Shown one piece after another: positions 176-64,000 of a stretch of 64,000 nucleotides of DNA. The DNA is from Ilex aquifolium (Eukaryota; Streptophyta; Magnoliopsida; Aquifoliales; Aquifoliaceae), in NCBI GenBank assembly GCA_951799425.1, contig OX637393.1:496001-560000 (forward strand). Reading direction: 5' to 3'. Numbering within the stretch: position 1 is the stretch's first letter; every line of letters begins with the position of its first letter. The notes under the pieces were generated by a model. The model was not told the origin of the DNA and made no database searches. It saw only the letters and a list, made by a program, of their open reading frames with translations. Made by a program: the position numbers and the translations under genes.

Positions 176-712
176 TCTATCTGGTTCTTTAACGTCTGCC
201 AGTCACAAAGACAGTTGAAGCTGCATCCGATGTGATCATGAAATACAGGTACAAATACTAAAAAAAACGCGATCCAAAAAAAATAAATTTTTTTTTTTTT
301 TTTTTTTTTCAGATCTAAAACTAAAATTACAAATACGAAACTAGAGAAAGTATACCAAAATACAAGCGGAAGGAAGAAGATTTAGGATGAAACAAACAAA
401 TTAACGAAGAAGGAATAAACCCAGAATACATAGGATTGAGGAGGATTATTTGGCAAATTATCAGATCTTACTGTAACAGCAATTACAACATAGTCATTGG
501 AGGGCATAGCAAATTCACAAGGAATCTTATAAAGACAAATAGCCATGAGAATCACAAGCTGTAGATATCAAATTTCAAATATATATATAAATGAAATTAC
601 AAACAAGCAATACTTACAACACTAGCACTAGTGGGCTAGTGGAGATAAGGTTGTAAGGTACAGATCTGTTCATCTGCCGAAACCTACAAACAAAATACAA
701 CAATTACTCAAC

Positions 713-844
713 TCAAGGAATATCTGGGTTTCTCTGGAAACTCCTCATCCTAAGTGTGAGAACACAAAGAGCACCCAGGTACAAATACAAACATATAAGG
801 CAAATTATTAAACAAAAGACTGGATCATCGGCGTATATGGTCAT
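713..844 (-). CDS. Small hydrophobic protein, accessory ORF 1 copy A (43 aa)
   Basis: This is the diverged counterpart of the 48-aa ORF at 2916-3062. It starts M-T-I-Y-A-D-D-P, carries one long hydrophobic segment (about 9-31), a basic R-M-R, then SFQRNPDIP and a stop. The DDP near the start and NPDxP at the end are kept although much of the nucleotide sequence has changed and the hydrophobic core is substituted with other hydrophobic residues. An upstream extension exists in the frame but is low-complexity and lacks a counterpart. No known family; a single-pass membrane peptide is the most that can be said. Confidence 0.45.
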   Translation of the reverse strand: MTIYADDPVFCLIICLICLYLYLGALCVLTLRMRSFQRNPDIP

Positions 845-975
845 GGATTTACAGAGAACAGAAAGAACGACGACGAAGAAGAAGAGAAGAAAAAGAAAGA
901 GAAGAAGATAAGGGAAAGAGAAAAGGGGGAAAACCAACACCGGTAATGGTGGAAGAAAAAGAAAAAGGTGGAAGG

Positions 976-1015
976 CCTAATAAAGGCATTCCTCAGATTT
1001 TTTTTTTTTCTTTTT

Positions 1016-1063
<48 letters not shown>

Positions 1064-1126
1064 AAGTGTCGGCAGCAGCTGGCAGACAGAAGAAAAGAAA
1101 AAAAAAAAGAAGAAAGAGAATGGGAG

Positions 1127-1162
<36 letters not shown>

Positions 1163-1190
1163 ACTTTACTTTCGGCAGTGTCGGCAAGCG
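976..1190 (-). promoter_or_regulatory. Candidate internal promoter of accessory unit A
   Basis: The 13-mer GTGTCGGCAAGCG (plus strand, 1178-1190) is identical to the one ahead of unit B. A weaker TATA-like CCTTTATTAGG is at 976-986, about 130 nt before the ATG at 844. Two poly-T runs and a purine-rich insert separate the blocks here, so the promoter may be damaged. Confidence 0.3.
999..1161. repeat. Poly-T and purine low-complexity tracts
   Basis: Runs of T at about 999-1059 and 1131-1161 flank an A/G-rich stretch. On the element strand these are poly-A tracts. They generate several meaningless Phe- or Lys-rich ORFs. Confidence 0.9.
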
Positions 1191-2158
1191 CAAATCATGG
1201 CAGCAGGCGCAATAATGGTGCATAGTAATAAAAATGAGTAGGGTAAGAGAACACCTCGCACTTGAGCTTTGACCCATGCACCGATATCTGAAACTAGGAA
1301 CAACAAAATTATACAACAAAAGAAAGTGACATGCATTAAAAATAACATTAATAAATAAAAGCAACTGTACTTCACTCACGGTTCCAACAAAGAACCAGAC
1401 ACACACTAAATTTTATACCATTAATTGCACACACCCACATTTTCTAAAATGTAATGAATGAACGGCTGCCTACTTTTGACTTTTGTTTTTTTTTTTTTTT
1501 TTTTTTTTGCCAGTCTTCACGTGGCTGAAGACTCAATTATCATAAAAGTTAAAATAGTTATACTTTGCTCCCCTATATTTCACTTATTATATACATTAAC
1601 CACAAAACTTAACTATTCCTTATACTTTCCCATCAAAACTCATAATATATATACTTAAACTATTTTCAAAAATTTCAAAAATTTGGGATCTCACAATCTA
1701 CCCTCCTCAAAAGAATTTCGTCCCTGAAATTCCTTGATTCACCAAGAATCCCAAAATTTGTAGGGGTACAAAGTGTAACACAAGAAAGAAAAAAAATATA
1801 AAGTGTTTATTATTCAAAAGAAAGGGGTGTTATTGAATTTTTTTTCAATAAAGTTGTAATTATTCTCAATTCACTAAACCGAATGAATATAAAATTTCAG
1901 ATTTTACACTACTAACCCCTTTATTTTACTTATTATATATTTCAACCTCTCTATTTTACTTATTATATATTCCAACCCTTTTTTTTTTTTTTTCTACACT
2001 ACATTATGCATACTAAAAGGAATCAAAATAAACATTCTTAAGCCAAAAGAGTTTGTACAGAACATAAAAAAAAAATAAAATAAAATAAAATAAAATAAAA
2101 TTTACAGACTCGGACCTTCAGCTTTCATTCCCAACCTCAGTACACTTTTCCACAGAGG
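1191..2158. other. AT-rich spacer between the two accessory units
   Basis: No gene is seen. It holds poly-T runs (near 1487-1508 and 1978-1993), a repeated phrase TATTTTACTTATTATATAT (near 1922 and 1952), and an AAAAT microsatellite at about 2070-2100. Nothing here has a second copy in the window that I noticed. Confidence 0.6.
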
Positions 2159-2590
2159 TCAATCCGATTCCCCCTCCGTATCTGTGTAAAATGGACAACT
2201 AGTAACTCTCCCAACTTCCTCTCTCACAAATCGGTTAAGCACAGTACCGGAATAGCATGGCGTATCAGGGTAATCCTTACTCAGCCCATGTTTTATCCAG
2301 TTTAATCGATCGGTTGCGCGACCGGAAATTGGTTCAGAACATTTGTTGTATCTTTTCTCATGAAAGTATCTGCCACACTGTTTACAGGCACCAAGTCGTG
2401 TAGCACGACGACGTTTAGAATAACTGCTTCGGCCACAGAGGGGTTTCGCTTGTTTTTCTTTGATTTCAGCCTTCCTTACTAATCTTGCTTTTCTCATGAT
2501 CATGGTATGTACATCAGATGGAAAAGTACGTAGGACTCCTAGACTAAACCAAAAAAGATTTACATCCATGATTGCTACTCTATGACCCAT
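2159..2590 (-). CDS. Cysteine-rich basic protein resembling viral nucleic-acid-binding protein, copy B (143 aa)
   Basis: The protein has an N-terminal segment (1-50), then a compact motif: LCGR, an Arg/Lys-rich stretch at 57-65 (YSKRRRATR), and a zinc-finger-like C69-x2-C72-x4-H77-x6-C84. A DRLNWIKHG-type segment follows at about 94-102, and the tail is acidic (DTEGESD). A basic arm directly before a CCHC-like finger is the hallmark of the small nucleic-acid-binding proteins of carlaviruses and vitiviruses, some of which suppress RNA silencing; the resemblance is from memory of the family and unsearched. The partial copy at 1-175 matches at 40 of 58 residues. Residues 2-7 differ between copies, so the true start may be Met8. 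The ORF is on the same strand as pol, 3' of it. This could be capture of a viral gene by the retroelement, or an unrelated Cys-rich retroelement protein. Confidence 0.6.
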   Translation of the reverse strand: MGHRVAIMDVNLFWFSLGVLRTFPSDVHTMIMRKARLVRKAEIKEKQAKPLCGRSSYSKRRRATRLGACKQCGRYFHEKRYNKCSEPISGRATDRLNWIKHGLSKDYPDTPCYSGTVLNRFVREEVGRVTSCPFYTDTEGESD

Positions 2591-2915
2591 TATCTGGTTC
2601 TTTTACGTCTTCCAGTCACAAAGACGATCAAAACTGACCCACAGATATTATCATTAATACAAGGTACATAATATGAACAGATACAACAATAAAAACAAAA
2701 AAAAAAAATTTACAGAAAATTTTACGGGTTCAACCTGCGCAGATCAACTACTGTAAACTGCAGATCAACTATTGTAAACTGTAGATCTCACCCCCCAACC
2801 TAGACTGAACATTGTCCCCAATGTTTCGAGTTTTTCGGTTTGTAGAGCTTGAATACGCAGTTAACTGTGGAGATCTGTTCAATCGCCGATGACCTATACC
2901 AAAAAAAAAAAGAGA

Positions 2916-3062
2916 TTAAGCATCTTTGGGGTGGTCTGGGTTTTCATTGGGACAAAAACCCTTGATCATCAGTGCGGCCCGAAGAAGAACAGCCATAAGT
3001 AAATAATACAAACAAATGTAGATCATGAGAAGGAGGATAGGGTCATCGAAAAATGCAGACAT
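2916..3062 (-). CDS. Small hydrophobic protein, accessory ORF 1 copy B (48 aa)
   Basis: I recognise no family. The 48-residue product begins M-S-A-F-F-D-D-P, has one strongly hydrophobic segment at about 9-32, then a basic and polar tail (L-R-A-A-L-M-I-K-G-F) and a Pro-rich end NENPDHP. It reads as a single-pass membrane protein. A longer frame extends upstream to 3272, but the match to copy A (713-844) starts at this Met: both share M-x4-DDP, the same hydrophobic length, a basic residue cluster, F, and NPDxP. That shared pattern after extensive nucleotide divergence is the argument that it is coding. It lies between a TATA-like box and the cysteine-rich ORF. By analogy with small membrane movement proteins of plant RNA viruses it could act on membranes, but that is speculation. 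Confidence 0.5.
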   Translation of the reverse strand: MSAFFDDPILLLMIYICLYYLLMAVLLRAALMIKGFCPNENPDHPKDA

Positions 3063-3209
3063 GGTACTGTTATGGGTTGGATCGTGGTACAGAAGACCAG
3101 ATGCAGTGGAGAAGAAGAAGAAAAGAGAAGAAGCAGAAGAAGAAAAAGAAAAGAAAAGAGTAAAGGTGTGGTGAGGAAAAGAAAAAAAAGAAAAAAAAAG
3201 CGATGGGAG

Positions 3210-3275
3210 CCTTATAAAGGCAGTCCATCGTGTCGGGTGTCTGACTGACCCGACCCTTTTTTGTGTCGGCAAGCG
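3210..3275 (-). promoter_or_regulatory. Candidate internal promoter of accessory unit B
   Basis: Two blocks are conserved ahead of both accessory units: a 13-mer (plus strand GTGTCGGCAAGCG, 3263-3275) and a TATA-like CCTTTATAAGG (3210-3220). The TATA box ends about 148 nt before the ATG at 3062 and contains the TAA stop of gag-pol. Conservation between two diverged copies is seen; promoter activity is inferred. Confidence 0.4.
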
Positions 3276-6200
3276 TAATCTCCGGAGTGATATCCGGAGA
3301 TACTTTCTGGATCCATTAAAAAAATGGTCTCCACATTTTGGACAAAATTCTCCACAAAGGGTTTTAATCTCTGACCATTGACGGTAAAAATGTTACCGTT
3401 TGATGGGTTCTCCACTTCCACTGCCCCATGTTCAAATACCTTTTTAACAATGTATGGTCCAGTCCATCTTGATTTTAACTTACCAGGAAATAGGCGAAGT
3501 CTCGAATTGAAAAGTAGAACCTTTTGATCAGGTTCAAAAGATTTTCGCACTATGTTCTTGTCATGAAAAATTTTCATCCTGGTTTTTGCAATCTTAGCAT
3601 TTTCATATGCTTCATTTCTCAATTCCTCCAATTCATTAATCTGAAGCTTCCGTGACAGTCCAGCCTTGTCTAAGTCAAAATTCATTGCTTTAATAGCCCA
3701 GTATGCCCTATGTTCCAATTCCACAGGCAAGTGACATGGCTTTCCATAGACTAATCGATAGGGAGACATGCCCAAAATTGTTTTAAAAGCAGTTCGGTAT
3801 GCCCAGAGCGCATCAGCTAGTCTTAATGACCAATCTTTGCGATCTGGGTTCACCGTTTTTTCCAAAATTAATTTGATCTCCCGATTAGCTAACTCAGCTT
3901 GTCCACTGGTCTGTGGATGATAAGGGGTTGCAATTTTGTGAAAAATCAAGTATTTTTTCATTAAATTCCAGAAGGGACGATTGCAAAAATGAGAACCCCC
4001 ATCACTTATAATGGATTTTGGAATTCCAAACCGAGATAAAATATTTTCTTTTAAAAACTTGATCACCGTTTGATGATCATTATTTCGGCATGGAATTGCT
4101 TTAACCCATTTGGATACATAGTCTACGGCTACTAAAATGTATAGATAGCCAAAGGAGGGGGGAAATGGTCCCATAAAATCGATACCCCAACAGTCAAAAA
4201 TTTCGATCACCAAAATTGGGTTTAAGGGCATCATGTTTCTTTTTGAAATGTTTCCCAACCTTTGACATCTATCGCAAGTTACGCAAAAAGCATGGACATC
4301 TTTGAAAAGTGTGGGCCAGTAAAATCCACACTGCAAGATTTTTGCAGCGGTTTTTCGAGATGAAAAATGACCACCGCATGCTTCTGAATGACAAAATGTT
4401 ATTACCTGTCTACTTTCCTGAGCGGGGATGCAACGTCTTATGATCTGATCCTTACAGTACTTGAATACGTAGGGATCTTCCCAAAAGAAATTGCGGACCT
4501 CCCTCAGAAACTTCTTTTTGTCCATGGGAGTGAAAAATGGAGGAAGTGTTCCGGTAGCAAGGAAATTAGCAATATCAGCGTACCATGGGGTTTCATCAAT
4601 CCTGAATAGTTGTTCATCGGGGAATTTTTCATTGATTGGCAGTCCATCCTCATGAAATTCATAAGTTAATCTTGACAGATGATCTGCCACCACATTTTCC
4701 ACACCCTTTTTGTCCTTAATGACTAAATCAAATTCTTGGAGCAAAAGGATCCATCTCAAGAGCCTTGGTTTAGCATCTTTTTTTGTAAGCAAAAATTTCA
4801 GTGCTGCATGGTCAGTAAATACAGTAACAGAAGAACCAACAAGATAAGATCGAAATTTTTCCAATGCAAATACTACAGCAAGTAATTCCTTTTCAGTTGT
4901 TGAGTAATTCATTTGGGCATCATTTAAAGTTTTACTTGCATAGTAAATTACATGTGGCTTCTTATCTTTTCTTTGTCCCAAAACAGCACCTACAGCATAG
5001 TCACTAGCATCACACATCAATTCAAAGGGTAGAGTCCAGTCAGGAGGTTGCATTATTGGGGCAGAAATTAACATGCCTTTGAGTTTGTCAAAGGATTTTT
5101 GGCACGCTTCATTCCAGTCGAAAATGACATCCTGACACAAAAGATGACACATAGGTTTTGCTATGGTGCTGAAGTCTTTTATGAACCTTCTGTAGAATCC
5201 TGCATGACCTAAGAATGATCGAACATCCTTCACAACCCTAGGAGCAGGAAGATTCCTTATCAAATCAATTTTTGCTTTATCAACTTTCATGCCTTCAGAC
5301 GACACAATGTGACCCAAGACAATGCCTTGATTCACCATGAAATGACATTTCTCCCAGTTAAGCACCAGATTTGCCTCTTTGCATCTCATCAAAACTTTTT
5401 CTAGGTTAGCTAGACACAAATCAAATGAGTCACCATATACCGAGAAATCATCCATGAAGATTTCCAAAAATTTTTCGACCATGTCACTGAACAAGCTTAG
5501 CATACATCTTTGAAATGTTGCAGGAGCGTTACAAAGTCCGAATGGCATCCTTTTGAATGCAAAGGTGCCAAATGGACATGTGAATGTGGTCTTTTCTTGG
5601 TCATTCAGAGCTATCTCAATTTGATTGTATCCGGAATACCCATCTAGGAAACAGTAAAATTCATGGCCTGCTATTCTCTCGAGGACTTGGTCAAGGAAGG
5701 GAAGAGGAAAATGGTCTTTTCTAGTCACCAGATTGAGTTTTCGATAGTCAATGCACATTCGCCATCCTGTGACGACTCGTGTTGGCACGAGTTCATTTGC
5801 ATCATTTTTGACTACTGTGACTCCAGATTTCTTTGGTACAACTTGGGTTGGACTAACCCATTTGCTATCGGAGATAGGAAAAATTATCCCTGCATCCAGG
5901 AGTTTGAGCACTTCCAGTCTCACAACCTCTTTCATGTGAGGATTCAATCGTCGCTGCATTTGACGAGAGGGTTTTGAGTCCTCTTCAAGGTATATGGCAT
6001 GATTACAAATTAACGGGCTTATACCTTTCAAATCAGCGATGGTCCACCCAATGGTGCTTTTGTGACTTTTAAGAACTTCAATTAATTGAGCTTCTTGCAA
6101 GTCTGTGATTTTTGAAGAAATTACCACTGGGTAAGATTTATCCTCACCTAAAAATGCATACTTGAGATCAGATGGGAGCGGTTTCAGTTCAGGCTTTGGT

Positions 6201-8812
6201 GACCTGTCACTTGAAGATAGTGGTTTTGTACCACTTGATGAAATTTCTTCAAATTTAGGAGCCCATGTCCCCACATTGAAGGTAGGACACTCAATGGAGT
6301 TTTGTTCCAGAGAGTCAGATGAGTCAGATTTTGACAAAATTGATTCACTAAGATCCTCACAGAATGAGTCATTCAGATGTGCTTGTATCAATGACTCAAT
6401 GGAATTTATTTCTCCTACCTCCTCGTACTCTCTTGGGTGTTTTGCAATGTCAAAGACGTTCATTTCGAGAGTCATATCCCCAAAAGTCAATTTCATAATA
6501 CCATTCCTGCAATTGATTAGTGCATTGGAGGTTGCTAGAAAAGGTCGACCAAGAATGACAGGAATTGGAGTTTCTGAATGAACTTCTGGATGAGTATCTA
6601 GAACAATGAAGTCTACAGGGAAGACAAAATTATCCACTTGGACAAGTACATCTTCAACAATACCCCTAGGAATTTTTACAGATCTATCTGCCAATTGGAG
6701 TGTGGTGCAAGTGGGTTTCAGTTCACCTAAACCCAACTGCTGGTAGACAGAGAAAGGAAGCAAGTTGACACTAGCTCCAAGGTCTAACAATGCTTGCTCA
6801 ATTTTGAAATTTCCAATGACACATGACACAGTGGGACACCCTGGATCTTCGCACTTTGAAGGGATTTTTTGTTGAAGTAGGGCACTGGCTTGTTCTGTGA
6901 AGAAGGCTCTTTTTTGAACATTTTGGCTTCTTTTGACTGTGCACAAGTCTTTTAGAAACTTGGCATAAGCTGGAACCTGTTGGATTGCATCCAGAAGTGG
7001 GATGTTGATTTTTACTTGCTTGAAAAGCTCGTAAATTTCAGACTGATTGTTTGCTTTCTGTATGCTCTTGAGTCTATGAGGGAAAGGAGCAGGAATAGAA
7101 CACGAGGGTTCTTCTTCCCTTGATGGCTCTGGTTCTTGTTCAATCATGGGATCACAGTCATTTTTTTTTTCAAGTTCTGGCTCACTTAATGGGTTGGCTG
7201 GAATTGAGACTGGTTTTGGGTCTGGAATCAGCATGTTTCTGATGGACTTGTCAATCTTTTTGCCACTTCTCAATGTGGTGACAGTTTTGGCTTGGTCTTG
7301 TGGAGTTTCCATAGTTGATGGATTTCCCACCTGAAATTGGCCTTGTGGAGGCTTTGGTTGGGCAGGAAATTTTCCCTTCTCATGTGTGCTCATGGACTGG
7401 GTCAGCTTTTGAATGTGGCCTTTGAGATCCTCAAAAGATTGTGTGGTCTGGGCCTTGAAATCAATAAAAGCCTGAGTAGAACTATTGTTATAGCTCATTT
7501 GGGTTTGCATGAATTGATTCAATGTATCTTCAAGGTTCCTTTTATGTGGTGGTTGATATGGAGGATATTGTGGAGGTACTTGAGGTGGATGTGGTGGCCC
7601 TTGTTGATGAGGATATTGTGGAGGTCCTTGAGGTGGTTGTTGTGGACCTTGTTGCTGATTCATGGGGGTTGGTTGTGTGTTTCTCCAACTGAAATTTGGG
7701 TGGTTCCGCCACCCTGGATTGTATGTTTCAGAGTATGGGTTGGAGTAAGGCTTGTTGAAATTAGAAATGGCATTTGTTTGTTCCAACAAAACTTCTTTGA
7801 ATGCCGGAATGGTCGGGCATTCCCCAGTAGGATGCCCTGTTAGCGCACAAATCCCACACACTTGTTCTGTGGGAGGGACAACATCAACTTGATGGACCTT
7901 TTTCATCTCTAAAGCTTCAAGCTTTCGAGACAAAGTGGACATTTTTGCTCTAAGATCATCATCTTCTCTCAAGACATACTTACCCCCTTGGAAAGTAGGT
8001 GGTTTGGCTTCTACAGTGGTAGGAGAGGCTGAGTCCCACATTTGAGAACTGTCAGATATGGTATCAAAAAAATTGAATGCCTCCTCCGGACTTTTTCCCA
8101 TGAACTCTCCTTGAGCCATCATTTCGACAAACTGTCGTAACCTAGTGGGCAAGGAATCATAGAAAAAACCTGCCAAAGTCCAATTTTCAAAAGCATGGTG
8201 TGGACAAGATTGGAGAAGATCTTTGAATCTCTCCCAGCTTTGATAAAAAGTTTCCCCTTCTTTGACCGAAAAATTCATGATTTGTCTTTTGAGTGTATTA
8301 GTACGGTGCAGAGGAAAGAATTTTCTGAAAAATTCATTCTGTAGAGCCTGCCAATTAGGGATTGAAAGAGATTTTAAAGAATGTAACCATTGTTTGGCTT
8401 TATCCCTCAAAGAGAAAGAAAACAATTTCATTTTTGTCAATTCAGAATTGTCTTGAAATGTTCCACACACTTCTTCGAAGTCTTTGATATGCAGATACGG
8501 ATTTTCTGCATCCAATCCATGAAACACGGGCAATAACTGCACTGTCCCCGGCTTTACAGTAAAGAGGGGAGCATTTTCAGGAAAAATAAAACAAGAGGGG
8601 ACACTATTCCTTGTGGGATGTAAGTAATCCCGCAATGTTCGAATGTTGGGTACTTCCCCCTCTCTCACATGATCTTCACCCTGCCTGTCAATATTTGCCA
8701 TATTGAAGTTACAAGAATCGGCTTCTGATTTGGGTGAAGGTGGTTCAAGTTGATTTACAGACCCAGAAGATTCAGCAGGCAAATTTTGAAAGAGGCGATT
8801 GGTGTCAGTCAT
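3212..8812 (-). CDS. Athila gag-pol polyprotein, 1866 aa, intact
   Basis: One uninterrupted frame encodes capsid-nucleocapsid plus all replication enzymes. Gag occupies about 90-480, with a CCHC knuckle at 319-332 ([14 protein letters not shown]) and a Pro/Gln-rich repeat stretch at about 385-425. The protease has LLDLGAS at about 675-681. RT is about 940-1200, with [10 protein letters not shown] near 1018 and FMDD at 1119-1122. RNase H is about 1260-1390 ([19 protein letters not shown]). Integrase has an HHCC finger at about 1475-1516 and DD35E residues D1545, D1604 and E1640. All catalytic motifs I can identify are present, with no frameshift between gag and pol. The ATG at 8812 lies about 100 nt after the primer site. 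The stop codon TAA overlaps a TATA-like sequence placed for the downstream accessory ORF. The C-terminal 30 or so residues look unlike integrase. Confidence 0.95.
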
Positions 8813-8915
8813 AAAACAAAATTATTCACAATAAGGCAAAAATATAAACAAAAAGAGAGTTTTTTTTTTTTTTTTTTTTTTTCACTTTTTTCTAAAAAAA
8901 ACACCTTTTATGATT

Positions 8916-8932
8916 CCCCGGCAACGGCGCCA
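8916..8932 (-). other. Primer binding site, tRNA-Asp type
   Basis: The minus strand reads TGGCGCCGTTGCCGGGG, the perfect complement of the 3' end of plant tRNA-Asp including CCA. This is the primer commonly used by plant Athila-group elements. It starts 6 nt inside the LTR end. The gag ATG follows about 100 nt later. Confidence 0.9.
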
Positions 8933-9691
8933 AAAACTTGACTTGATCCGAAATGTGTACACCCAAGTGCAGGCGGTCAAGTTGTAGTAATAATCTGGTT
9001 TGAGTCCAGAGTCGAATCCTCAGGGAACTATGGTTGGTGTTCTTTGAAGTAAATAGTGAGAAAGACTTGTAACTGGAAATATTATGATTTTGAAGTTGTG
9101 GGAAGTTTTGGATAGAATGTAAAATTCTTTCCAATGGGTATTTTTCTAGACAAAATATAAGATGATTAAATGTAACAAACACTCTTTGGTTCGGGAATCA
9201 GAATATGTAGTTGATTATCCGGTGCATTATGTTTATGCTTTATAACTCAATTAACTCCCGTGTCAACGGCAAATTAATCGGAAGATAGGAATGAAGTGCA
9301 ATAATGGTGGACATTGAAAGTTTGTCATGAAGAGTTAGTTAGGGTACTTGCCTTGAATCAATGGATCTTTCCATGTAGGAGTCATCCATTTATCATAGAA
9401 AGATCCGTTGATTATACAAAGTACCTTTACTTTGCTAGGTGCATTCAATCACCCAAAAATCAAGTGGAGTATAGAACATTTAAGCATAAAGGTGATACAC
9501 AAACATAATGTCCGGATTAATCTTTTACATATCTATCATCCCTTCCCAAAGAGTGAATGAGGACTACTCACCCTTCATAGCTATGGTAAAGCTAGAATGA
9601 TGAATGATACTCATCCCCAAAAGGTGTTACAAAGTAAAATGCTCAAGCAATGGAAGTAAAAGAAAACAATACTTAAATTAAAAGAAAGCAA

Positions 9692-9915
9692 TAATTACTT
9701 GGTGTTTAATTCACAACCAAGAGATAATAAAAACATAAAAGAAAACAACAACTTCTTGGTGTTTAATCCACAACCAAGATATAATAAAAACATAAAAGAA
9801 AACAATAACTTCTTGGTGTTTAATCCACAACCAAGATATAATAAAAACATAAAAGAAAACAATAACTTCTTGGTGTTTAATCCACAACCAAGATCTAAAA
9901 CATAAAAGAAAACAC
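9692..9915. repeat. 57-bp tandem repeat in the LTR, about four copies
   Basis: The phrase CTTGGTGTTTAAT(T/C)CACAACC recurs at exactly 57-bp spacing (near 9698, 9755, 9812 and 9869). The last copy is incomplete. Because 57 is a multiple of 3, the array gives a spurious open reading frame. Confidence 0.9.
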
Positions 9916-10184
9916 TTAGTAGAGGAGGCTCAGCCTTCCATTATATTTATATAAGCAAGTAAATATAAAAGCTATAAAGAAATGACAATTATAAGAAAGA
10001 ACTCTTACCATAAGAACATAAGCATAAAATCTTCAATACATGAATTGAAATGGAAGCTACAAAAGATGAAAGAAAATTTGCTCTCTAAAAACTCTTCTAA
10101 AATCTCTCCTAACTCTTAGTTCCTCTCTTGGTTTTTCCACCAATTCCACCCTCAGATCTCCCTTTGAAATGCAGAAGGAGCAGC

Positions 10185-10195
10185 CTCTTTATAGG
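10185..10195 (-). promoter_or_regulatory. Probable TATA box of the Athila LTR
   Basis: The minus strand reads CCTATAAAGAG about 330 nt into the LTR, a good plant TATA match that would start transcription inside the LTR. Position and sequence are seen; function is inferred. Confidence 0.45.
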
Positions 10196-10206
10196 CGTAG
10201 GAAGGC

Positions 10207-10335
10207 TGGGCAAGTGGGCAAGTGGGCAAGTGGAGAATGAACGGTGGTGTTGCTGAATGCTGATTTTTTAAATGCTTTTATTACACTTTGTCCTGCTTTT
10301 ATTACACTTTGTCCTGCTTTTATTACACTTTGTCC
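10207..10335. repeat. Short tandem repeats in the LTR U3 region
   Basis: A 10-bp unit containing GGGCAAGT is repeated three times near 10207-10231. A 21-bp unit (TGCTTTTATTACACTTTGTCC) is repeated three times at 10273-10335. Both lie upstream of the LTR TATA box on the element strand, where enhancer repeats usually sit. Confidence 0.8.
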
Positions 10336-10779
10336 TTCATTCTTTGCATTCTCCTGACATTGCTCCCTTGGTCTTGCGTTAATTCGGCATTTGTCCCTCA
10401 GATGTACTTCTTTGATGCCTTTGGACTTTCCTTCACTTTAGAACCTAAAATATCATCATTTAAACTCCATCAAAGTATAATTAGTCCAAAAAGAGTGTAA
10501 CAATATGCTACTTTTGAGTGCTAATCACATGCATTGAGCTTCCAAGATGGATAAGTTAAGAATCTAATTTACTCTTCAGGCACATTATAGCATTTTAACC
10601 ACCTCTGAACTAGATTACTAGATTTTCTCAAAGAACTGTCATTTATGTTTTTCTTGATAGAACAATGTCATGATAAAAGGAGTTCAGAAAATGGGTTCAT
10701 CTGGTGAAAAAGAAAGGCGCAAATGGAGACCTAATTGCTTGGGTCTTTGGTTTTAAAAGTTTGTCCCAATTCCATACCA

Positions 10780-12246: not shown

Positions 12247-12251
12247 ACCTT

Positions 12252-12840
12252 TGTTGGAATATGTGACTAAAATCCCTCGATGTTAATTAAGTCACGGTTG
12301 ATGGTCAAATTCGGAATATATATAAAACCCCAATCCGTTGGTTAAATATTACATTATTCATGACATATATCATATATGCATTTTTTGTGAAATTATTATG
12401 TATTAAATATTATTTTATAATGATGCATGCATATATATATTACATTGATATAATTGGATGTTTGAGTTCAATATTTTCTAGTCAGTATGGGTGACTTGGC
12501 TAGAGGGATCCATCAAGTAGTGAAAGACTAGTCAATCATACTTGAAGTATAATTAGTCTACTTTGACTGCAGAGGGTTGAGGAAACTACTTGTAGAGTTG
12601 AGAAAATATTGGGGAGTTGAGGATATTTTGCTAAGTGGTAAACGGCTAGTTGAATCCTCCTTTATAAACAAGGTTCTCTGCATATAGAGAGAACACACCA
12701 AGAAAACACCAAACTTGTAAGAAAACCCATTGAGGAAAAATCTCAGCCTTACTATTTTCATATCAAAGAGAATTTTTCATTCTCAAAGGCTAGCTCCTCA
12801 TTCATCAAATTTATCAAATTGTGTTCTATATATTTTTACA
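12252..12840 (+). repeat. 5' LTR of copia copy 1
   Basis: Begins TGTTGGAATATG, ends TTTTTACA, 589 bp. It differs from the 3' LTR by scattered substitutions and small indels, so the insertion is not recent. Confidence 0.93.
12661..12668 (+). promoter_or_regulatory. Probable LTR TATA box
   Basis: TTTATAAA, conserved in the 3' LTR and, as CCTATAAATA, in the second family copy (near 60001). An alternative TATATATAAAA lies upstream near 12317. Confidence 0.4.
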
Positions 12841-12857
12841 TTGGTATCAGAGCACCA
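12841..12857 (+). other. Primer binding site, initiator tRNA-Met type
   Basis: TTGGTATCAGAGCACCA directly follows the LTR; TGGTATCAGAGC is the standard plant copia primer site. Confidence 0.85.
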
Positions 12858-13301
12858 GGCGGTCATGATCAAATCTGATAAGAATCTCTGATTCTTTTAT
12901 TTTTTTCTTGTTTTCTCTCCCACCTTTTGCCATCACATTGTACGAAACAGAGAATTGGTCAAAGATTACTTTGTTGCAAGTTCTTTGAAGTCCAAAGAAC
13001 AAAGCTCAAATTTTACTTCTTTCTTGTTACTAGAGGTTCTTCAACGTGTTTGACTGAAACACCAACTCTTATTAATCTTTCGGCACCAAATCACTGAGAA
13101 GGTTGTTGGTGGTTTTTCAACAATTTTTCATTGTGCTGCGGGACTGAGCTATGAAAAATATATCGTGATTATTACAGACTTAAGCAATTGGTGTTGTAGT
13201 CTACTCGAAGCACTTTTGTAACCACACTTTGGTAACAAAATTAAATCGGGTCAGTTCTAACCAATTTTACCTAGTAATTTATTTTTCTATAATTTGTCAA
13301 T

Positions 13302-16300
13302 ATGGGGTCAAAGGCTGTTAGTGTAGAACTTAGCAAAACTGAGAGACTTAATAGTACAAATTATTCAACTTGGAAACATAGAATTCATCACATATTATTC
13401 CAAGATAAAGTTGAATATGTCATTGACACACCATACCCAAAAGAACCATCTCTTAGAGCCGGAGAGGCTGCTAGAAACACTTATGAAAGGTTTATAGAAA
13501 ACGACAAATTGGCTAAGTCAATCTTGCTCACTTTTATGGAACCTGATTTAGAGGTTATTTTTTAGGAACATGAAACTGCTAAGTCTATGTTTGATGCTAT
13601 AACACAAGCCTATGGTACTGCCTCTAACACATATATTCAACTCTTGATTGAAAAATATAATGGCACTTTTATGAAAGAGGATGAGTCTATTGTTGAACAT
13701 GTCAATAAACTTGTGGTAATAGCAAAAGAGTTGACATCTCTAGGCAACCCAATTCCCGATAAAATGCAAGTTTCTGCTGTTTTACATAGTCTTCCTAATT
13801 CATGGGAGTCTGTAGTGATTTATTTGAATATGTTTGGCTAAGACTTAACAATGACAAAGTTACCTATGTTGCTAGGCATTGAGGCATAGAGAAGGGCTAA
13901 AAAGAAAACTAGTAATGTGTCAAACATAGTTTCTAGTGCCCCATCTTCCCAATTTGTCACGGGTGCCCCATCTAATAATGTGTCAACTACTCCATCTTTT
14001 CTTAAGCCAAGACAAGACAAACATTTTAAAAGGAACAATAAGAAATATAATAAGTTCAAGAGACATAATAATTTTAAGGGAAAACAAATAGGTACTTGTT
14101 ATAATTGTGGGCAATCCGGTCATTACAAAAGAAATTGCACACAAAAGAATAATGGTCAAAATTTTAAAGGATCAAGAGACATTGTGTCTGTGGTTTCTGA
14201 GTCGCTTCTTGCAGACTGTGACTCTCTTGCTTGGTGGATTGGTTCTGTCTCTTCTCGGCATGTGGCTAAGACTAGAGATAATTTTGTTGAAATAAAGGAG
14301 ATGAAAATCGGCGACCACAAGTTATACATGAGAAATAATACTTACTGTGATGTGCATGAAATTGACACTGTGAGAATTTCGTTGCCCGAGCAAAACAACC
14401 TCCTCTTGACTGATGTATTTTATGCGCCTAATATACAGCGTAATCTCTTGTCTGTGCCACGATTAGATGATAAGGGTTTTGAAGTCCGTTTTCGGTTTTC
14501 TAAAGTTTCTATTGGTAAACATGGTCGTATTCTTGCATAGGGGACTAAAGTTGATGGTATTTACCGTTTGAATGTTGCTAGTGACAATAATAAAATTGGT
14601 TCTTTTTCTGCTTATATCGATGTCTCTTGTGATATTAATGTTGATTCTATTTTATGGCATATGAGATTAGGTCATATTAATTATAATAAAATGAAAAAAA
14701 TGGCTGACATTGGATTGATTACAAATTTAGATCTTGACTTGAAACCATGTGAATCTTGTATAAGTGGAAAAATGACTAGAAAGCCATTTGAAAAATTAGA
14801 AAGAGCTAAAGATTTGCTAGAATTAATACATTCAGATATTTGTGGTTCTCTAAATGTTAAAACCCATCGTGGTATGAAATATTTTATTACTTTTACCGAT
14901 GACTATTCAAGATGTGGTTATATATATTTACTAAAGAATAGATCAGATGCCTTACAAAAATTTATTGAATTTAAGGCAGAAGCAGAATACCAACTAGGTA
15001 GAAAAATTAAAATATTAAGAATGGATCGAGATGGTGAATACATGACTGAAATTTTTGAATCCTTTTGTAAAGAAAATAGAATAATACATCAATTAACAAT
15101 TTCTTATACACCTCAACAAAATGGTGTAGCTGAAAGGAGAAATAAAACACTTCTTAACATGGTTAGATCTATGCTTAGTCATGCACACTTAAGCACTACT
15201 TTTTGGGGTGAGGTTATTTCTACCGCCATTTATATTCTTAATAGAGTACCCTCTAAAACAATATGAATGACACCATATGAAATTTGGAGGGGTACAAAAT
15301 CAAGTCTTTCTCACTTAAAAGTTTGGGGTTGAACTCGACTTATGTTAAAATTTTAGGACCTAATAGAGGAAAATTAGATCCTAAATTAATAAAATGTACT
15401 TTTATTGGATATTGTGAAATTCTATTAGCTATAGATTTGTAATTCACCATAGTGATGGATCAGTGGGAGTCATTGAAAGTAGAGATGCATTTTTCTTTGA
15501 AGATGACTTAGATAAAATTGAGAAAATGGTTGAACTATTTGAAATTACTAAAGAAAATGAAAATAAACAACCACAAGAACAAATAATAAAAGAGCCTCCA
15601 CCCAATGATACCTTAACTAGAATACAAAGGGAAAGACATCCACCTAACTACTTAAAAGATTATTATGCATTCAATAGTAAAGAAATTTCAAATGATCCTA
15701 TTGATTTTAATGATGCTATAAATTCAATTGATCATCTAAAATGGAGAGAAACAATTAAAGAATAAATAGAATCTATAGAGAAAAATAAAGTTTGAGAGTT
15801 AGTTGATTTACCAATAGATATAAAAGCAATTGGGTGTAAATGGATCCTTAAAAAGAAATTTAAATCGGATGGATCTATAGATAAATATAAAGCTAGACTA
15901 GTAGCTAAGGGATACACACAAAAGGAATGTATAGATTATGATGAAACCTATTCTCCCGTAGCTAAGTTTACCTCAATAAGAATATTAATGTCCTTGGTTG
16001 CATACTTAGACCTAGAGTTGCATCAAATGGATGTTAAGACTGTTTTCCTTAATGGTGAACTTAAAGAAGAAATTTATATGTATCAACCGCAAGGATATGA
16101 AGTTGAAGGTAAAAAAGATAAGGTGTACAAATTGAATAAATCCTTATATGGTTTAAAATAATCCTCAAGGCAATTGTATCATACTTTTCATAATGTAATT
16201 ATATCTTATGGTTTTGTTCCAAATAACTACGATCATTGTATATATACTTGGAATAGTGGGAGTTATTATATTATTCTTTCCTTGTATGTGAATGACATTT

Positions 16301-17259
16301 TACTTGCCGGAAATGATATAAATAGAATCTTAGAACTAAAAGATTGGTTAAACACCAAGTTTGAAATGAAAGATATGGGTGAAACACATTATGTACTTGG
16401 AATTAAAATTTCTAGAGATAAAAAACAAAGAAAATTGAGTTTATCTCAAAAATCTTATTTGGAAAATATTTTAAAGAAATTCAAAATAGATTCTTGCAAA
16501 CCTATTGAATCACTCATTTACAAAGGAGCAAATTTGTCTAAGAATATGGCTCCTAAAACTGAAGAGAAAATACAAGAAATGAAATCTAAACCCTACGCGG
16601 AAGTTGTTGGTAGTCTTATGTATGCTATGTTATGCACTAGACCAGACCTTAGCTATGTTGTTGGTTTGATTAGTCGATATCAAAGTAATCCAGGAATACC
16701 TCATTGGTTAGTTGTGAAACGTGTACTTAGATACATACAAGGTACATTAAACTTTTCTTTAACATATCAAGTTGATGATATAAATGTTAATGATTATTGT
16801 GATGCTGATTTTGCTGGTGATATTGATGATAAAAAATCCACCACGGGTTATATATTTGTTTTTTGTGGTAGTGCTATTTTATGATCTAGTAAAAAACAAA
16901 GTTGCATAGCTAAAAGTACTATGGAAGCTGAATATGTTGCTTGTAGTATGACTGTCTCCGAGGCCGTATGGTTAAAATGGTTTCTAACTGATTTAAAGCT
17001 TGCATGTGTAGATAATATGCCTATTCGTATTTTTTGTGATAATGAGGCTGTGATAAAAACCATTAAAAATGAGAAAATCGGGCCCAAAGGTAAGTATATT
17101 GAGTTACAATATCACTATATAAGTGATATAATACAAAAACAACATGTTACTATTGATTATCTTTGTACAAAAGATATAGTTGCAGACCCATTGACAAAAC
17201 CTATTGGAACCGAAGAATTTAAACGACATGTCGTTGCTATGAGTTTAAGTTATGAATGA
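13302..17259 (+). pseudogene. Copia gag-pol polyprotein, degenerate (copy 1)
   Basis: Starts ATGGGGTCAAAG at 13302. Gag has a CCHC knuckle CYNCGQSGHYKRNC near 14095. The protease reads WWIGSVSSRH near 14230, where the active-site Asp is Gly. GAG-pre-integrase is near 14640-14790 and the integrase core follows to about 15260. RT spans about 15770-16350, with YVND at the active site in place of YVDD. RNase H extends to the stop at 17257-17259. In-frame stops include 13563 (TAG), 13839 (TAA), 13887 (TAG), 14538 (TAG), 15264 (TGA), 15763 (TAA), about 16159 (TAA) and 16882 (TGA). Comparison with copy 2 shows a 2-nt gain near 15330 and a 1-nt loss near 15418. It cannot encode active enzymes. Confidence 0.93.
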
Positions 17260-17278
17260 ATATCTCGGGTTTGTAGCT

Positions 17279-17288
17279 AAGTGGGAGA
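17279..17288 (+). other. Polypurine tract
   Basis: AAGTGGGAGA immediately before the 3' LTR. Confidence 0.8.
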
Positions 17289-17887
17289 TGTTGGAATATG
17301 TGACTAAAATCTCTCGATGTTAATTAAGCCATGGTTGGTGGTCAAATCCGAAATATATATAAAACCCCAATCCGTTGGTTAAATATTGCATTATTCATGA
17401 CATATATCATAGATGCAGTTTTTGTGAAATTATTATATACTAAATATTATTTTATAATGATGCATGCATACATATATTACATTCATATAATTGGATATTT
17501 GAGTTGGATTTTTTTAGTCAGTATGAGTGACTTGGTTAGAGGGACCCATCAAGTAGTGAAAGACTAGTCAATCCTACTTGGAGTATAATTAGCCTACTTT
17601 GACTGCAAAGGGTTGAGGAAAATACTGGTGGAGTTGAGAAAATATTGGGGAGTTGAGGATATTTTGCTAAGTGGTAAACGGCTAGTTGAACGGCTAGTTG
17701 AATTCTCCTTTATAAATAAGGTTCTCTGTATACAGAGAGAACACACCAAGAAAACACCCAACTTGTGAGAAAACCACTGAGGGAAAATTCCAACCCTATT
17801 GCTTTCATATCAAAGAGAATTTTTAATTCTCAAAGGCTAGTTCTTCATTCATCAACTTTATCAAATTTTGTTCTATATATTTCTACA
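17289..17887 (+). repeat. 3' LTR of copia copy 1
   Basis: 599 bp, TGTTGGAATATG to TTTCTACA. It carries a 12-bp local duplication (CGGCTAGTTGAA near 17680-17702) that the 5' LTR lacks. Confidence 0.93.
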
Positions 17888-58372: not shown

Positions 58373-59579
58373 GTGTTTCGTTTGTAAAAATTGTACAAAA
58401 CTGCATTACTTCAATCTATTATAGTATAATGCTAGAACTATTGATTAATGATCTCTTTGCTTAAAGACACCGAGTACTGAATTTTAGATCTTTGTAAATA
58501 TTATGCGGCAGAGACTTCGTCAACTAGACCTGTACGGATGTGGGCTGGATTCTCTTCAAAAGCCAATGGAAGCTCATATCTTGAAAGTGAGACAACTACC
58601 GTTGAATAGTTGTTTCTATTTGATTATGATTATGTAAAATCGTTATTTATTTTTTTTCTACTTTCACGCAGTGTTTTTAGTCTATAATGAAGCTATGTCA
58701 CGTATAATTCATATCTAAAATGTTTCTTCTTAGTGGTTAGTTTTTTGTTCTTACTTTTTTTAAGGAAAGATTAAATTGTTTGTTCCAAGTTTTTAAATTG
58801 GATTGTGTTGATGTTAGGAATGTATGATAATGAATTTTGTGGCTTCAAAAAATTAATTTTTATTGTATTTGGTTTATTATATGTTTTTGGATTTAATTAT
58901 GCAATAAGTTAGAAATTGGAGAATAGTTAAAGATTGGGTTATCGTAGTTCAAGGAAGAAAAAAAGATAAGGTTTTTAAGCATTGACAATTATTTAAGGTT
59001 TTTTGTTTGTCACGTAATACTTTTAGGCATGGACAGCTACTAGCTATGACATTGTCATATGACATTGTCATAGCTATGATTATGAGCGATATAAATACAA
59101 ATAACTATGATTGTTTGTATTGTAGACATGTTTAAAATTTTTTTTAGACTCCTATTTTTAGAGGAAATTATGCCGAAATTTTTGAAAAATAGTAGAGATT
59201 AACTTGATTTCAATTTCTTATATTAAAACAATGAAGTAAAAACTATTTCAAATTGATGTTTTATTTTAAGTTGCAAAGTGCCTTTACACAATATAGTATT
59301 ATTCGAGTTTTAATTTAATTTTTTGTTACGTCATGCCTTCAGGCACGAGTAATTACTAGTAACTAATAAAACAAAGACAGAGTGTGCCCATGCCTCATAT
59401 GATTTAACCAAACGGATATGGGCACAAGTCAACTAGAATTGGAAAACTGTTCGGTCAGTAAAGTGTGTGTTTTGTGTAAGGGTGGGGCTATTCCCACCCC
59501 ACAAATCTCAATTTTCATCTCATTTAATTTCTCATTATCAAACTATTAAGTTCACCATTTTTATACCCACCTCATTAGT
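58373..59579. other. Intergenic sequence, no gene seen
   Basis: AT-rich, with a small direct repeat GACATTGTCATA near 59048-59075. Nothing else noticed. Confidence 0.55.
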
Positions 59580-60170
59580 TGTTGAAATATGTGGCTAAAA
59601 TCTCTTGATATTAATTACGCCACGGTTGGTGGTCAAATTCAGAATATATAAAACCTCAATCCGTTAGTTAAATATTGCATTATTCATGACATATCATAGA
59701 TGCATTTTTTGTCAAATTATTATATATTAAATATTATTTTATAATGATGCATGCATACATATATATTATATTGATATAATTAGATGTTTGAATTGAATCT
59801 TTTCTAGTCAGTATGAGTGACTTGGCTAGAGGGACCCATCAAGTAGTGAAAGACTAGTCAATCCTAATTGGAGTATAATTAGTCTTCTTTGACTGCAGAG
59901 GATTGAAGAAATATTGGTGGAGTTGAGAAAATATTGGGGGAGTTGATGATATTATGCTGAGTGGTAACGACTAGTTGAACGGCTAGCTGATATATCCTCC
60001 CCTATAAATAAGTTTCTTTGCATACAGAAAGAATACACCTGAAAACACTCAATTTAAGAGAAAACCTATTGAGGAAAAATCTCAACTCTACTGCTTTTAT
60101 ATCAAAGAGAATTTTTAATTCTCAAAGGCTAGCTCTTCATTTATCAAATTTTATTCCGTAAATTCCTACA
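59580..60170 (+). repeat. 5' LTR of copia copy 2
   Basis: 591 bp, TGTTGAAATATG to AATTCCTACA, clearly homologous to the LTRs of copy 1. Confidence 0.92.
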
Positions 60171-60187
60171 TTGGTATTAGAGCAACA
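60171..60187 (+). other. Primer binding site of copy 2, mutated
   Basis: TTGGTATTAGAGCAACA; differs from the copy 1 site by C-to-T at position 8 and a change near the end. Confidence 0.75.
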
Positions 60188-60741
60188 GGCGGTCATCAAA
60201 CATTGCAATTTTTTTTTCTCAGTCGTTTTTTCGACTGTATCTAGTCTTCGTACTTTTCACATCCCAGGAAGCCTAGAGGAGTTCACCACTTTTTTGTCAA
60301 AAATTTATTGTTTTTCATCAAGTCCACCAAATTCCACAAGAATACAAGAACCTATCAATTATTTCACATTTTTAGTGGATTGTTTCTTTCACAATTCATA
60401 TTCGGTCAAACTTCACCAAAGATTCCACACGTTCTATGAAGTCAAAACAAAGACTTAAATTCTTTTATAGTCTTCAGTCATACTAGGTGCCTTGGCCTAA
60501 AAATTGTGTCATATTTTAGCCATAATTGCGGAATCCCAGTTATCGAGTGATTTTTGAAGTGCAACAAAATTGTCATGGTATTGCCTTCTTGCTATTATTC
60601 GATTGACCAGAAGTGGTGATTACTGCGGAGGAGATAGCAGTTCACTTGAAGCACTCTTGAAACCATACATCAGTAACAAAATTAAATCGGATCAGTTCTA
60701 ACCAATTTTACGTAGTTATTTTTTTTCAATAATTTGTCAAT

Positions 60742-63700
60742 ATGGGGCCAAGGCTACTAGTGTAGAACTTAGCAAAACCGAGAGATTTAATTGTACAAAT
60801 TATTCAACTTGGAAACATAGGATTCGTCACATATTATTTCAAGATAAAGTTGAATATATCAATGACACACCATACCCAAAAGAACCACCTCTTAGAGCCA
60901 GCAAGACTGCTAGAAACACTTATGAAAGGTTTGTAGAGAACGATAAATTGGTTAAGTCAATCTTACTCACTTTTATGGAACCCGATTTAGAGGTTATTTT
61001 TTAGGAACATGAAACTGGTAAATCTATGTTTGATGCTATAACACAAGCCTATGGTACTGCCTCTAACACATGTATACAACTCTTAATTAAAAAATATAAT
61101 GACACTTTTATGAAAGAGGATGAATCTGTTGTTGAACATGTCAATAAACTTGTGGTAATAGTTAAAGAGTTGGCATCTCTAGACAACCCAATTCCTGATA
61201 AAATGCAAGTTTCTACTGTTTTACATAGTATTCCTAATTCATGGGAGTCCATTGTGATTTCTTTGAATATGTCTGGCCACGATTTTATAATGGCAAAGTT
61301 ACTTATGTTTCTAGGCATTGAGGCCTAGAGAATGACTAAAAAGAAAACTAGTAATGTGTCAAACCTAGTTTCTAGTACCCCATCTTCCCAATTTGTCACG
61401 GGTGCCCCATCTAATAATATGTCAACTACTTCGTCTTTTCTTAAGCCAAGACAAGATAATCATTTTAAAAGAAATAATATGAAATATAACAAGTTCAAGA
61501 GACATAATAATTTTAAGGAAAAACAAATTGGCACTTGTTATAACTGTGGGTAGCCCGGTCATTACAAAAGAAATTGCATACAAAAGAATCATAGTCAAAA
61601 TTTTAAAAGATCAAGAGATATTGTGTGTGTGGTTTCTGAGTTGCTTCTTGCAAATTGTGACTCTCTCGCTTGGTGGATTGATTCTGCCTCTTCTCGGCAT
61701 GTGGCTAAGACTAGAGATAATTTGGTTGAAATAAATGAGGTAAAAATCGGCGACCACAAGTTATACATGAAGAATAATACTTACTGTGATGTGCTTGGAA
61801 TTGACACTATGAGAATTTCGTTGCCCGGGCAAAACCACCTCCTCTTGACTGATGTACTTTATGCGCCTAATATGCGGCACAATCTCTTGTTTGTGCCACG
61901 ATTAGATGATAAGGGTATTGAAGTCCATTTTCGGTCTTCTAAAGTTTCTATTGGTAAACATAATCGTATTCTTGCATGGGGGACTAAAGTTGATGGTCTT
62001 TACCGTTTGAATGTTGTTAGTGACAATAATAAAATTGGTTCTTCTTCTGCTTATATTAATGTCTCTTGTGATATTAATGTTGATTCTATTTTAAGGCATA
62101 TGAGATTAGGTCATATTAATTATAATAAAATGAAAAAGATGGCTAACATTGGATTGATTCCAAATTTAGATCTTGACTTGAAACCATGTGAATCTTGTAT
62201 AAGTTGAAAAATGACTAGAAAGCTATTTGGAAAAGTAGAAAGTGCTAAATATTTGCTAAAATTAATACATTCAGATATTTGTGGTCCTCTAAATGTTAAA
62301 ACTCATCATGGTATGAAATATTTTATTACTTTTACCAATGACTATTCAAGATATGGTTATATATATTTACTAAAGAATAGATCGGATGCCTTACAAAATT
62401 TTATTGAATTTAAAGCGGAAGTAGAAAACCAACTAGGTAGAAAAATTAAAATATTAAGGACGGATCGAGGTGGTGAATACATGGCTGAAATTTTTGAATC
62501 TTTTCGTAAAGAAAATGGAATAATACATCAATTAACAATTTCTTATACACCTCAACAAAACAGTGTAGCCGAAAGGAAAAATAGAACACTTATTGACATG
62601 GATAAATCTATGCTTAGTCATGCGCACTTAAGCACTACCTTTTGGGGTGAGACTATTTGTACCGTTATTTATATTCTTAATAGAGTACATTCTAGAACAA
62701 TATGAATGACACCATATGAAATTTGGAGGAAAACAAAATAAAGTCTTTCTCACTTAAAAGTTTGGGATAGTTCGGTTCATGTTAAAATTTTAGGACCTAA
62801 TAGAGAAAAATTAGATCTTAAATCAATAAAATGTACTTTTATTGGATATTGTGAAAATTCTGTTTGTTATAGATTTGTAATTCACCATAATGATGGATCA
62901 GTGGGAGCCATTGAAAATAGAGATGCATTTTTCTTTGAAGATGACTTAGATAAAATTGAGAAAATGGTTGAACTATTTAAAATTACTAAGGAAAATGAAA
63001 ATATACAACCACAAGAGCAAATAATAAAAGAGCCTCTACTCAATGATACTTTAATTAACTAGAATACAAAGGGAAAGACATCCACCTAGCTACTTAAAAG
63101 ATTATTATGCATTCAATAGTGAAGAAATTCTAAATTATCCTATTGATTTTAATGATGCTATGAATTCAACTGATCATTTAAAATGGAGAGCATCAATTAA
63201 AGAAGAAATAAAATCTATAGAGAAAAATAAAGTTTGGGAGTTAGTTGATTTAACAATAGATAGAAAAACAATTGGGTGTAAATGGTTGTTTAAAAAGAAA
63301 TTTAAATCGGATGGATCTATAGATAAATATAAAGCTAAACTAATGGCTAAGGGATACACACAAAATGAAGGAATAGATTATGATGAAACCTATTATCCCG
63401 TTGCTAAGTTTACCTCAATAAGAATATTAATATCCTTGGTTGCATACTTAGACCTAGAGTTACATCAAATGGATGTTAAGACTGTTTTCCTTAATGGTGA
63501 ACTTAAAGAAGAAATTTATATGTATCAACCGCAAGGATATGAAGTTGAAGGTAAAGAAGATAAGGTGTACAAATTGAATGTCATACTTTTCATATAAATT
63601 TATATGTATCAACCGCAAGGATATGAAGTTGAAGGTAAAGAAAATAAGGTGTACAAATTGAATGTCATACTTTTCGTAAAGAAGATAAGTCCTTATATGG

Positions 63701-64000
63701 TTTAAAACAATCATCAAGGCAATGGTATCATACTTTTCATAATGCAATTATATCTTATAGTTTTGTTCCAAATAACTATGATCATTGTATATATACTTGA
63801 AATAGTGGGAGTTATTACATTATTCTTTTCTTGTATGTGGATGACATTTTACTTGCCGAAAATGATATAAATAGAATCTTAGAATTAAAAGATTGGTTAA
63901 ACACCAAGTTTGAAATGAAATATATGGGTGAAGCACATTATGTACTTGGAATTAAAATTTCTCGAGATAGAAAGCAAATAAAATTGAGTTTATCTCAAAA
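60742..64000 (+). pseudogene. Copia gag-pol polyprotein, degenerate and partial (copy 2)
   Basis: The gag start (ATGGGGCCAAGG at 60742) has lost one base relative to copy 1, so the frame shifts within the first codons. Stops include TAG 61002, TAG 61326, TAG 61551 in the zinc knuckle, TGA 62205 and TGA 62703; a frame change lies before 63160. The protease keeps its Asp (WWIDSASSRH), unlike copy 1. The RT keeps YVDD near 63838. The region 63512-63675 contains an 84-bp tandem duplication. Gag, protease, integrase and RT are present in order; RNase H is off-window. Confidence 0.92.
63512..63680 (+). repeat. 84-bp tandem duplication inside the copy 2 RT region
   Basis: The phrase AAATTTATATGTATCAACCG occurs at 63512 and again at 63596, and both units end AATGTCATACTTTTC. 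Copy 1 has one unit, and its sequence continues AATAAATCCTTATATGG instead. Confidence 0.9.

Follow-up and report, generated by a model that had tools for sequence, protein, structure and literature searches.

Does a plant long terminal repeat (LTR) retrotransposon carry a gene of RNA-virus type, and what might such a gene do for it? The question is raised by a stretch of 64,000 nucleotides of Ilex aquifolium (hereafter the window: C3:496001-560000, that is, positions on contig C3 of an assembly of 800,232,872 bases and 103 contigs), in which a small open reading frame (ORF), here named NABP1, lies inside an LTR retrotransposon. NABP1 had been predicted to resemble the small cysteine-rich nucleic-acid-binding proteins (NABPs) of carlaviruses and vitiviruses. 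Taken as a whole, the observations are best explained, with good probability in our view, by a young Athila-type element that encodes two paralogous NABPs of flexivirus type, which would protect its RNA.

Relationship of NABP1 to viral proteins

The original prediction described a 143-residue ORF on the same strand as, and 3' of, an intact gag-pol, with an Arg/Lys arm (placed at residues 57-65) directly before a C-x2-C-x4-H-x6-C finger, and with an acidic tail. This description holds. The upstream gag-pol is a single open frame with gag, protease, RT, RNase H and integrase domains (intact is used here for an open frame with domain matches), and the translation of NABP1 shows the basic arm at K59-R65, the finger C69-x2-C72-x4-H77-x6-C84 and the acidic tail. 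In an alignment of 12 sequences (A1), C72, H77 and C84 are invariant (12/12) and C69 is kept in at least 90%. The finger spacing is not identical to that of grapevine virus A (GVA) or potato virus H (PVH).

In hmmscan, NABP1 matches two viral families above their curated cut-offs, namely PF05515 (Viral_NABP; E-value 7.6e-11, 42.8 bits, cut-off 23) and PF01623 (Carla_C4; E-value 7.3e-6, 26.3 bits, cut-off 20.9). Both families are also matched by all 12 members of A1, at E-values up to 0.1. This HMMER comparison had been suggested as a check, and what it returned was a significant match to the Pfam viral families, not an absence of matches or hits to zinc knuckles only. As a non-circular test, 636 reading frames of the window were scored with a profile made from 11 virus proteins and no others. 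NABP1 ranked first, with 76.8 bits (E-value 5.6e-23); the second NABP copy of the element (frame 2-202) reached 20.7 bits, and every other frame 8.3 bits or less. The best of 2000 shuffles of the NABP1 protein scored 11.6 bits. Because NABP1 stands so far above both the shuffles and the frames outside the two NABPs, a chance resemblance to the viral proteins is excluded.

Profile-to-profile comparison (hhalign) of A1 with an alignment of 11 virus sequences (A4) gives a match of 99.4% over 102 columns (E-value 3.4e-21). A search of about 5.8 billion proteins with NABP1 returned 11 relatives at 65-82% identity, from metagenome-type sources, and a profile search retrieved a protein of peach mosaic virus that is colinear with NABP1 over 128 columns (42/128 identical). 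A profile of element-type, metagenome and peach mosaic virus members (A3) retrieves proteins of tricho- and vitivirus type (cherry mottle leaf virus, Mexico trichovirus, GVA, carrot vitivirus 1), together with those of shallot virus X, garlic virus D, elderberry carlavirus A, PVH and hemp virus T. The likeness claimed at the outset is thus borne out by two Pfam families and by named tricho-, viti-, allexi- and carlavirus proteins.

Searches of IMG/VR with NABP1 and its relatives, and with the gag-pol, gave no confirmed relative, and those of GTDB contigs, a phage collection and PHROGs gave none either. Five metagenome proteins (P0032, P0036, P0038-P0040) form a separate PF05515 group of 118-182 residues, one of them on a contig of 8723 bases. 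NABP1 does not stand in the RNA genome of a flexivirus, as its 3'-proximal gene, but in an LTR retrotransposon; it belongs to the protein family without being a virus gene. That it is homologous to the flexivirus NABPs and belongs to the element we regard as practically certain.

Copies, placement and selection

The element family is abundant and recently amplified. The copies scored are the best-matching of first-look candidates, which biases the share of open frames upward and means that first-look numbers are not confirmed copies: when the 800-Mb genome was searched with NABP1, the best 150 of 4099 candidates all lacked an internal stop, at 99-100% identity (18 at 100%, the window's own included), and with PF05515 the best 150 of 3095 were all above the cut-off, 147 of them without a stop. 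The PF05515 search found no match in any of 14 control genomes. Nothing close to a more distant metagenome group (P0015) turned up in the genome: among 150 scored, identity reached 47% at most.

Fifty-seven loci with an NABP match were examined. In 19 of them a gag-pol is visible within the stretch taken, and eight of these are the nearly identical loci L001-L008, and NABP lies 3' of it on the same strand in all 19. Together with the homology, this common placement upholds the proposal that an LTR retroelement has, or shares, an RNA-virus accessory protein. Three older copies (L050-L052; 3 of the 20 older loci first selected, taken with longer flanks) contain broken gag-pol pieces of 52-81% identity, with an open NABP frame of 132-136 residues, each above the PF05515 cut-off, 321-344 bp past the pol match. 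In L042, L045 and L047, a gag or protease stands directly upstream of NABP, the intervening pol being largely absent; these are possibly non-autonomous derivatives that keep NABP. L042 has three stops within its match region.

Ratios of nonsynonymous to synonymous divergence (dN/dS) were obtained by the Nei-Gojobori method (NG86) for NABP1 against 17 other copies, namely the second gene of the element, NABP2, and 16 chosen loci. The comparisons are not independent, and dS exceeds 1 in some; dN/dS is 0.19-0.35 in 16 of the 17 and undefined in one (L046, with no synonymous change). NABP is almost certainly an element gene under selection. Because copies are open, the 3' placement is constant even in old copies and dN/dS lies at these values, it looks like an old, selected gene of the element and not a stray insertion.

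The host element

The element (Table 1) spans C3:492240-506527, 14,288 bp. If TG...CA ends are taken, CATGC can be read from the sequence at both flanks as a 5-bp target duplication. The two LTRs are identical over 1591 bp (window versus positions 4740-6330 of L009, the stretch adjoining the window on the left) and, because of this identity, the insertion is judged to be very recent; a plant rate of 1.3e-8 per site and year predicts one LTR difference about every 24,000 years. The primer binding site resembles the putative complement of the 3' end of plant tRNA-Asp.

Non-chromovirus Ty3/gypsy elements use tRNA-Asp as one of their primers (PMC6317226; papers are cited by PubMed Central (PMC) number, and for excerpts of their text). 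A domain scan of gag-pol at E-values up to 1 found no chromodomain and no additional RNase H such as the Tat clade has, and the lack of both is a criterion for the Athila lineage (PMC6317226). By domain content, and probably by primer site, the element fits a Ty3/gypsy element of Athila type. The Athila ORF-1 domain PF03078, present in 16% of Athila elements (PMC6317226), had no match in the genome; the 14 control genomes had none either, so this result does not show absence.

Table 1. Features of the element; positions refer to the window unless a contig is given.
Feature	Position	Strand	Description
5' LTR	8939-10527	minus	1589 bp, TG...CA ends
Primer binding site	8912-8932	minus	starts six bases past the LTR
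gag-pol	3212-8812	minus	one open frame, 1866 amino acids; Retrotrans_gag, aspartyl protease, RVT_1, RT_RNaseH, Integrase_H2C2, rve
TM1	2916-3062	minus	ORF of 48 amino acids, one long hydrophobic stretch (by eye); precedes NABP1
NABP1	2159-2590	minus	143 amino acids, ATG to stop; homologue of flexivirus NABPs
TM2	713-844	minus	ORF of 43 amino acids, diverged copy of TM1; precedes NABP2
NABP2	1-175, on to C3:495750 left of the window	minus	second intact NABP gene, 141 amino acids
3' LTR	C3:492240-493828, outside the window		identity with the 5' LTR (L009 4740-6330)

About four tandem units of 57 bases lie inside the 5' LTR (window 9679-9914) and are found in the 3' LTR as well. Another repeat family occupies window 12251-17887 and 59577-64000, with a pair spaced by about 5.04 kb and 90% identical; window 13203-16137 is repeated at 60644-63579 with 92% identity.

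The duplicated unit

Both NABP genes lie between the identical LTRs, 3' of gag-pol. NABP2 and NABP1 are identical at 94 of 141 aligned residues, with a dN/dS of 0.33. The DNA of the two units is 73.6% identical over 299 columns around the NABP start, and farther upstream there is a weak match (60% over 379 columns). The short ORFs TM1 and TM2 each have one hydrophobic stretch (by eye) and share 15 of 43 aligned residues, with a dN/dS of 0.60; TM1 matches no Pfam family and TM2 none above cut-off. Both are present in all of the loci L001-L008 (8/8). A TM-related frame occurs in 30/30 loci L012-L041, in 3/8 loci L042-L049 and in 0/3 of the old copies L050-L052, and because of the last two counts NABP is probably the older partner in the unit. 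A splice structure linking the TM ORF to NABP was considered and dropped, the candidate sites (by eye) not recurring in both units. TATA-like sites were also seen by eye ahead of each unit, at about 3215 and 985 on the minus strand.

In a tree of 44 rows (tree 2), metagenome proteins P0001-P0005 join the NABP1 type (support 100/100), and P0007 and P0009 join the NABP2 type (93/83). Because each type has such partners, the duplication is probably older than the separation of these lineages. P0004 and P0013 are each listed (JGI) with a longest contig of 2941 bases; probably the two are one contig with two NABP copies. L013 and L039 have NABP2-type frames with the arm region of NABP1, which suggests exchange between NABP1 and NABP2 copies. 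In L061 (C12:1119800-1129700), positions 645-9206 hold one NABP1 frame followed by four tandem units of 2.13 kb, about 99% identical, each with an open NABP2 frame and without another TM2, so that five open NABP genes stand in a row. This array is either a recent amplification of the cassette or an assembly artefact.

Origin and function

We propose that an NABP gene passed from a flexivirus into an ancestor of this element lineage, perhaps through RNA recombination during reverse transcription. The NABPs would be made from element RNA, would use their Arg/Lys arm and CCHC finger to bind nucleic acid in the manner of the viral NABPs, and would shield the element RNA from RNA silencing. The likeliest role is counter-silencing, because relatives in several viruses suppress RNA silencing, i.e., those of PVH (PMC3689765) and GVA (p10; PMC9104223), and that of the mandarivirus citrus yellow vein clearing virus (CYVCV; PMC12172455). 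We give suppression about an even chance of being the main role.

Two other views concern what NABP1 is. An ordinary zinc-knuckle protein of plants or retroelements, or a finger protein of ribosomal type, might be suspected from weak matches to ribosomal L37Ae/eL43 among solved-structure sequences (best E-value 0.0048) and from one metagenome relative that is named L37AE/L43A in its source. The viral families, however, give much better matches, which run colinearly over 102-128 residues, and a window frame that has a CCHC knuckle (+13890-14537) scores just 5.6 bits against the virus profile; we therefore rule this view out and leave it a vanishingly small probability. A stray insertion, in which a piece of an RNA virus was copied by chance into one retrotransposon copy and persists as junk, has precedent in the pieces of non-retroviral RNA viruses, betaflexivirus replicase included, that are known in plant chromosomes (PMC3136472). 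It is very improbable nonetheless, and is ruled out by the 150 scored open copies, the same place in 19 of 19 loci, the presence of old copies, the dN/dS of 0.19-0.35 and the two intact paralogues.

Other views concern where the gene came from and what it does. A tree of 41 rows (tree 1) needs four changes of virus label, and branches with good support force two of these; tree 2, from which two of the longest virus branches were omitted, permits a single change (support 76/90) and leaves trichovirus and carlavirus proteins in an open fork with the element proteins. Transfer from virus to element is the simpler reading, and we consider it probable. A plant retroelement as the source of the flexivirus gene, or a host gene as the source for both, is compatible with the bases of the trees and with the age of the gene in the element lineage; we hold such an origin to be unlikely, as the family is spread over several flexivirus genera and the loci examined, a small and biased set, showed no host gene free of the element. 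As regards function, the same gene might serve in RNA chaperoning or packaging, or in the regulation of transcription in the nucleus, and not in silencing suppression. In the viral family, the arm and the finger are features that bind nucleic acid (PMC3689765, PMC9104223), mandarivirus and allexivirus proteins have a nuclear signal and a finger, which are described as features of transcription factors (PMC12172455), and L042, L045 and L047 keep gag or protease with NABP, and lack most of pol, as a partner of Gag might. A gag is already present in the element, however, and silencing suppression is the role most often reported for the viral relatives in the excerpts cited, so that we regard another job as possible, if somewhat doubtful.

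Several observations weigh against a virus-derived, selected suppressor gene. NABP2 and its near copy L022 give a dN/dS of 0.55, from very few changes, and the bias of the scored copies toward the best-matching inflates the open-frame share. Neither tree resolves its base or places the element proteins relative to single virus genera. An AlphaFold2 model from an alignment of 17 sequences (A2) was too poor for use (predicted local distance difference test, pLDDT, 45; predicted template-modelling score, pTM, 0.22). Among the viral relatives, p12 of chrysanthemum virus B failed to suppress in one assay (quoted in PMC3689765), and the CYVCV protein acts on silencing induced by single-stranded but not by double-stranded RNA (PMC12172455).

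With these points in mind, we advance a broader picture tentatively: a silencing suppressor of flexivirus type may have been part of the lineage from an old ancestor onward, its dosage raised by duplication (two genes here, five in L061), and the recent burst may be partly owed to this suppressor. RNA viruses and retroelements would then exchange counter-defence genes.

Comparison with known systems

The NABPs of trichoviruses (peach mosaic virus, P0021/P0022; cherry mottle leaf virus, P0030) are colinear with NABP1 over most of their length and have, like it, a basic arm, a Cys finger and a downstream W-I/V-R/K-x-G block, but they are genes of positive-strand RNA viruses, with another finger spacing and 33% identity to NABP1. 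The vitivirus protein p10 (GVA, P0045) likewise has, in this order, an Arg-rich motif, a C..C-x4-H..C finger and a DRL-type motif (PMC9104223); at 90 residues, it is without the N-terminal part, and its finger is C-X-C-X4-H-X4-C as against C-x2-C-x4-H-x6-C. Cysteine-rich proteins of carlaviruses and allexiviruses resemble NABP1 in matching PF01623 or PF05515, and several of this type are silencing suppressors (PMC3689765, PMC12172455). The carlavirus finger, in PVH C-X2-C-X9-C-X4-C (PMC3689765), is unlike that of NABP1, and identity outside the arm and finger is low.

Athila elements with extra 3' ORFs share with this element the non-chromovirus Ty3/gypsy domains and the presence of ORFs between pol and the 3' LTR. 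In the excerpts cited, the known 3' ORFs are env-like or Athila ORF-1, and no viral NABP is named. A sunflower Athila has an antisense ORF of 70 residues with one membrane helix (PMC11728184), and in the excerpt of PMC7264820 no similarity to viruses is reported for antisense extra ORFs. A 2019 survey was restricted to ORFs of at least 250 codons (PMC6317226); NABP1 would therefore be missed. A search of the open-access literature in PMC gave no report of an NABP in a retrotransposon among the matches listed. That is, extra ORFs in Athila are already known, and what appears to be new is an extra gene of an LTR element that is an NABP of flexivirus type.

Extra ORFs of plant LTR retrotransposons are mostly without recognisable relatives or function (PMC7264820, PMC11728184, PMC9289625, PMC11963269). 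The extra ORF described here is tied by strong homology to a viral family with known activities, and is duplicated, conserved and under selection. It documents a gene common to positive-strand RNA viruses and a retroelement, it points to an accessory gene shared by retrotransposons and RNA viruses, and it makes the question of whether plant retrotransposons encode their own RNA-silencing suppressors directly testable. Ty3/gypsy elements of orchids carry another protein, an AlkB demethylase, and the text on the 121 angiosperm genomes screened does not, in the part cited, name an NABP (PMC9289625); there as here, an LTR element has an added gene that acts on RNA and is of a kind also present in flexiviruses.
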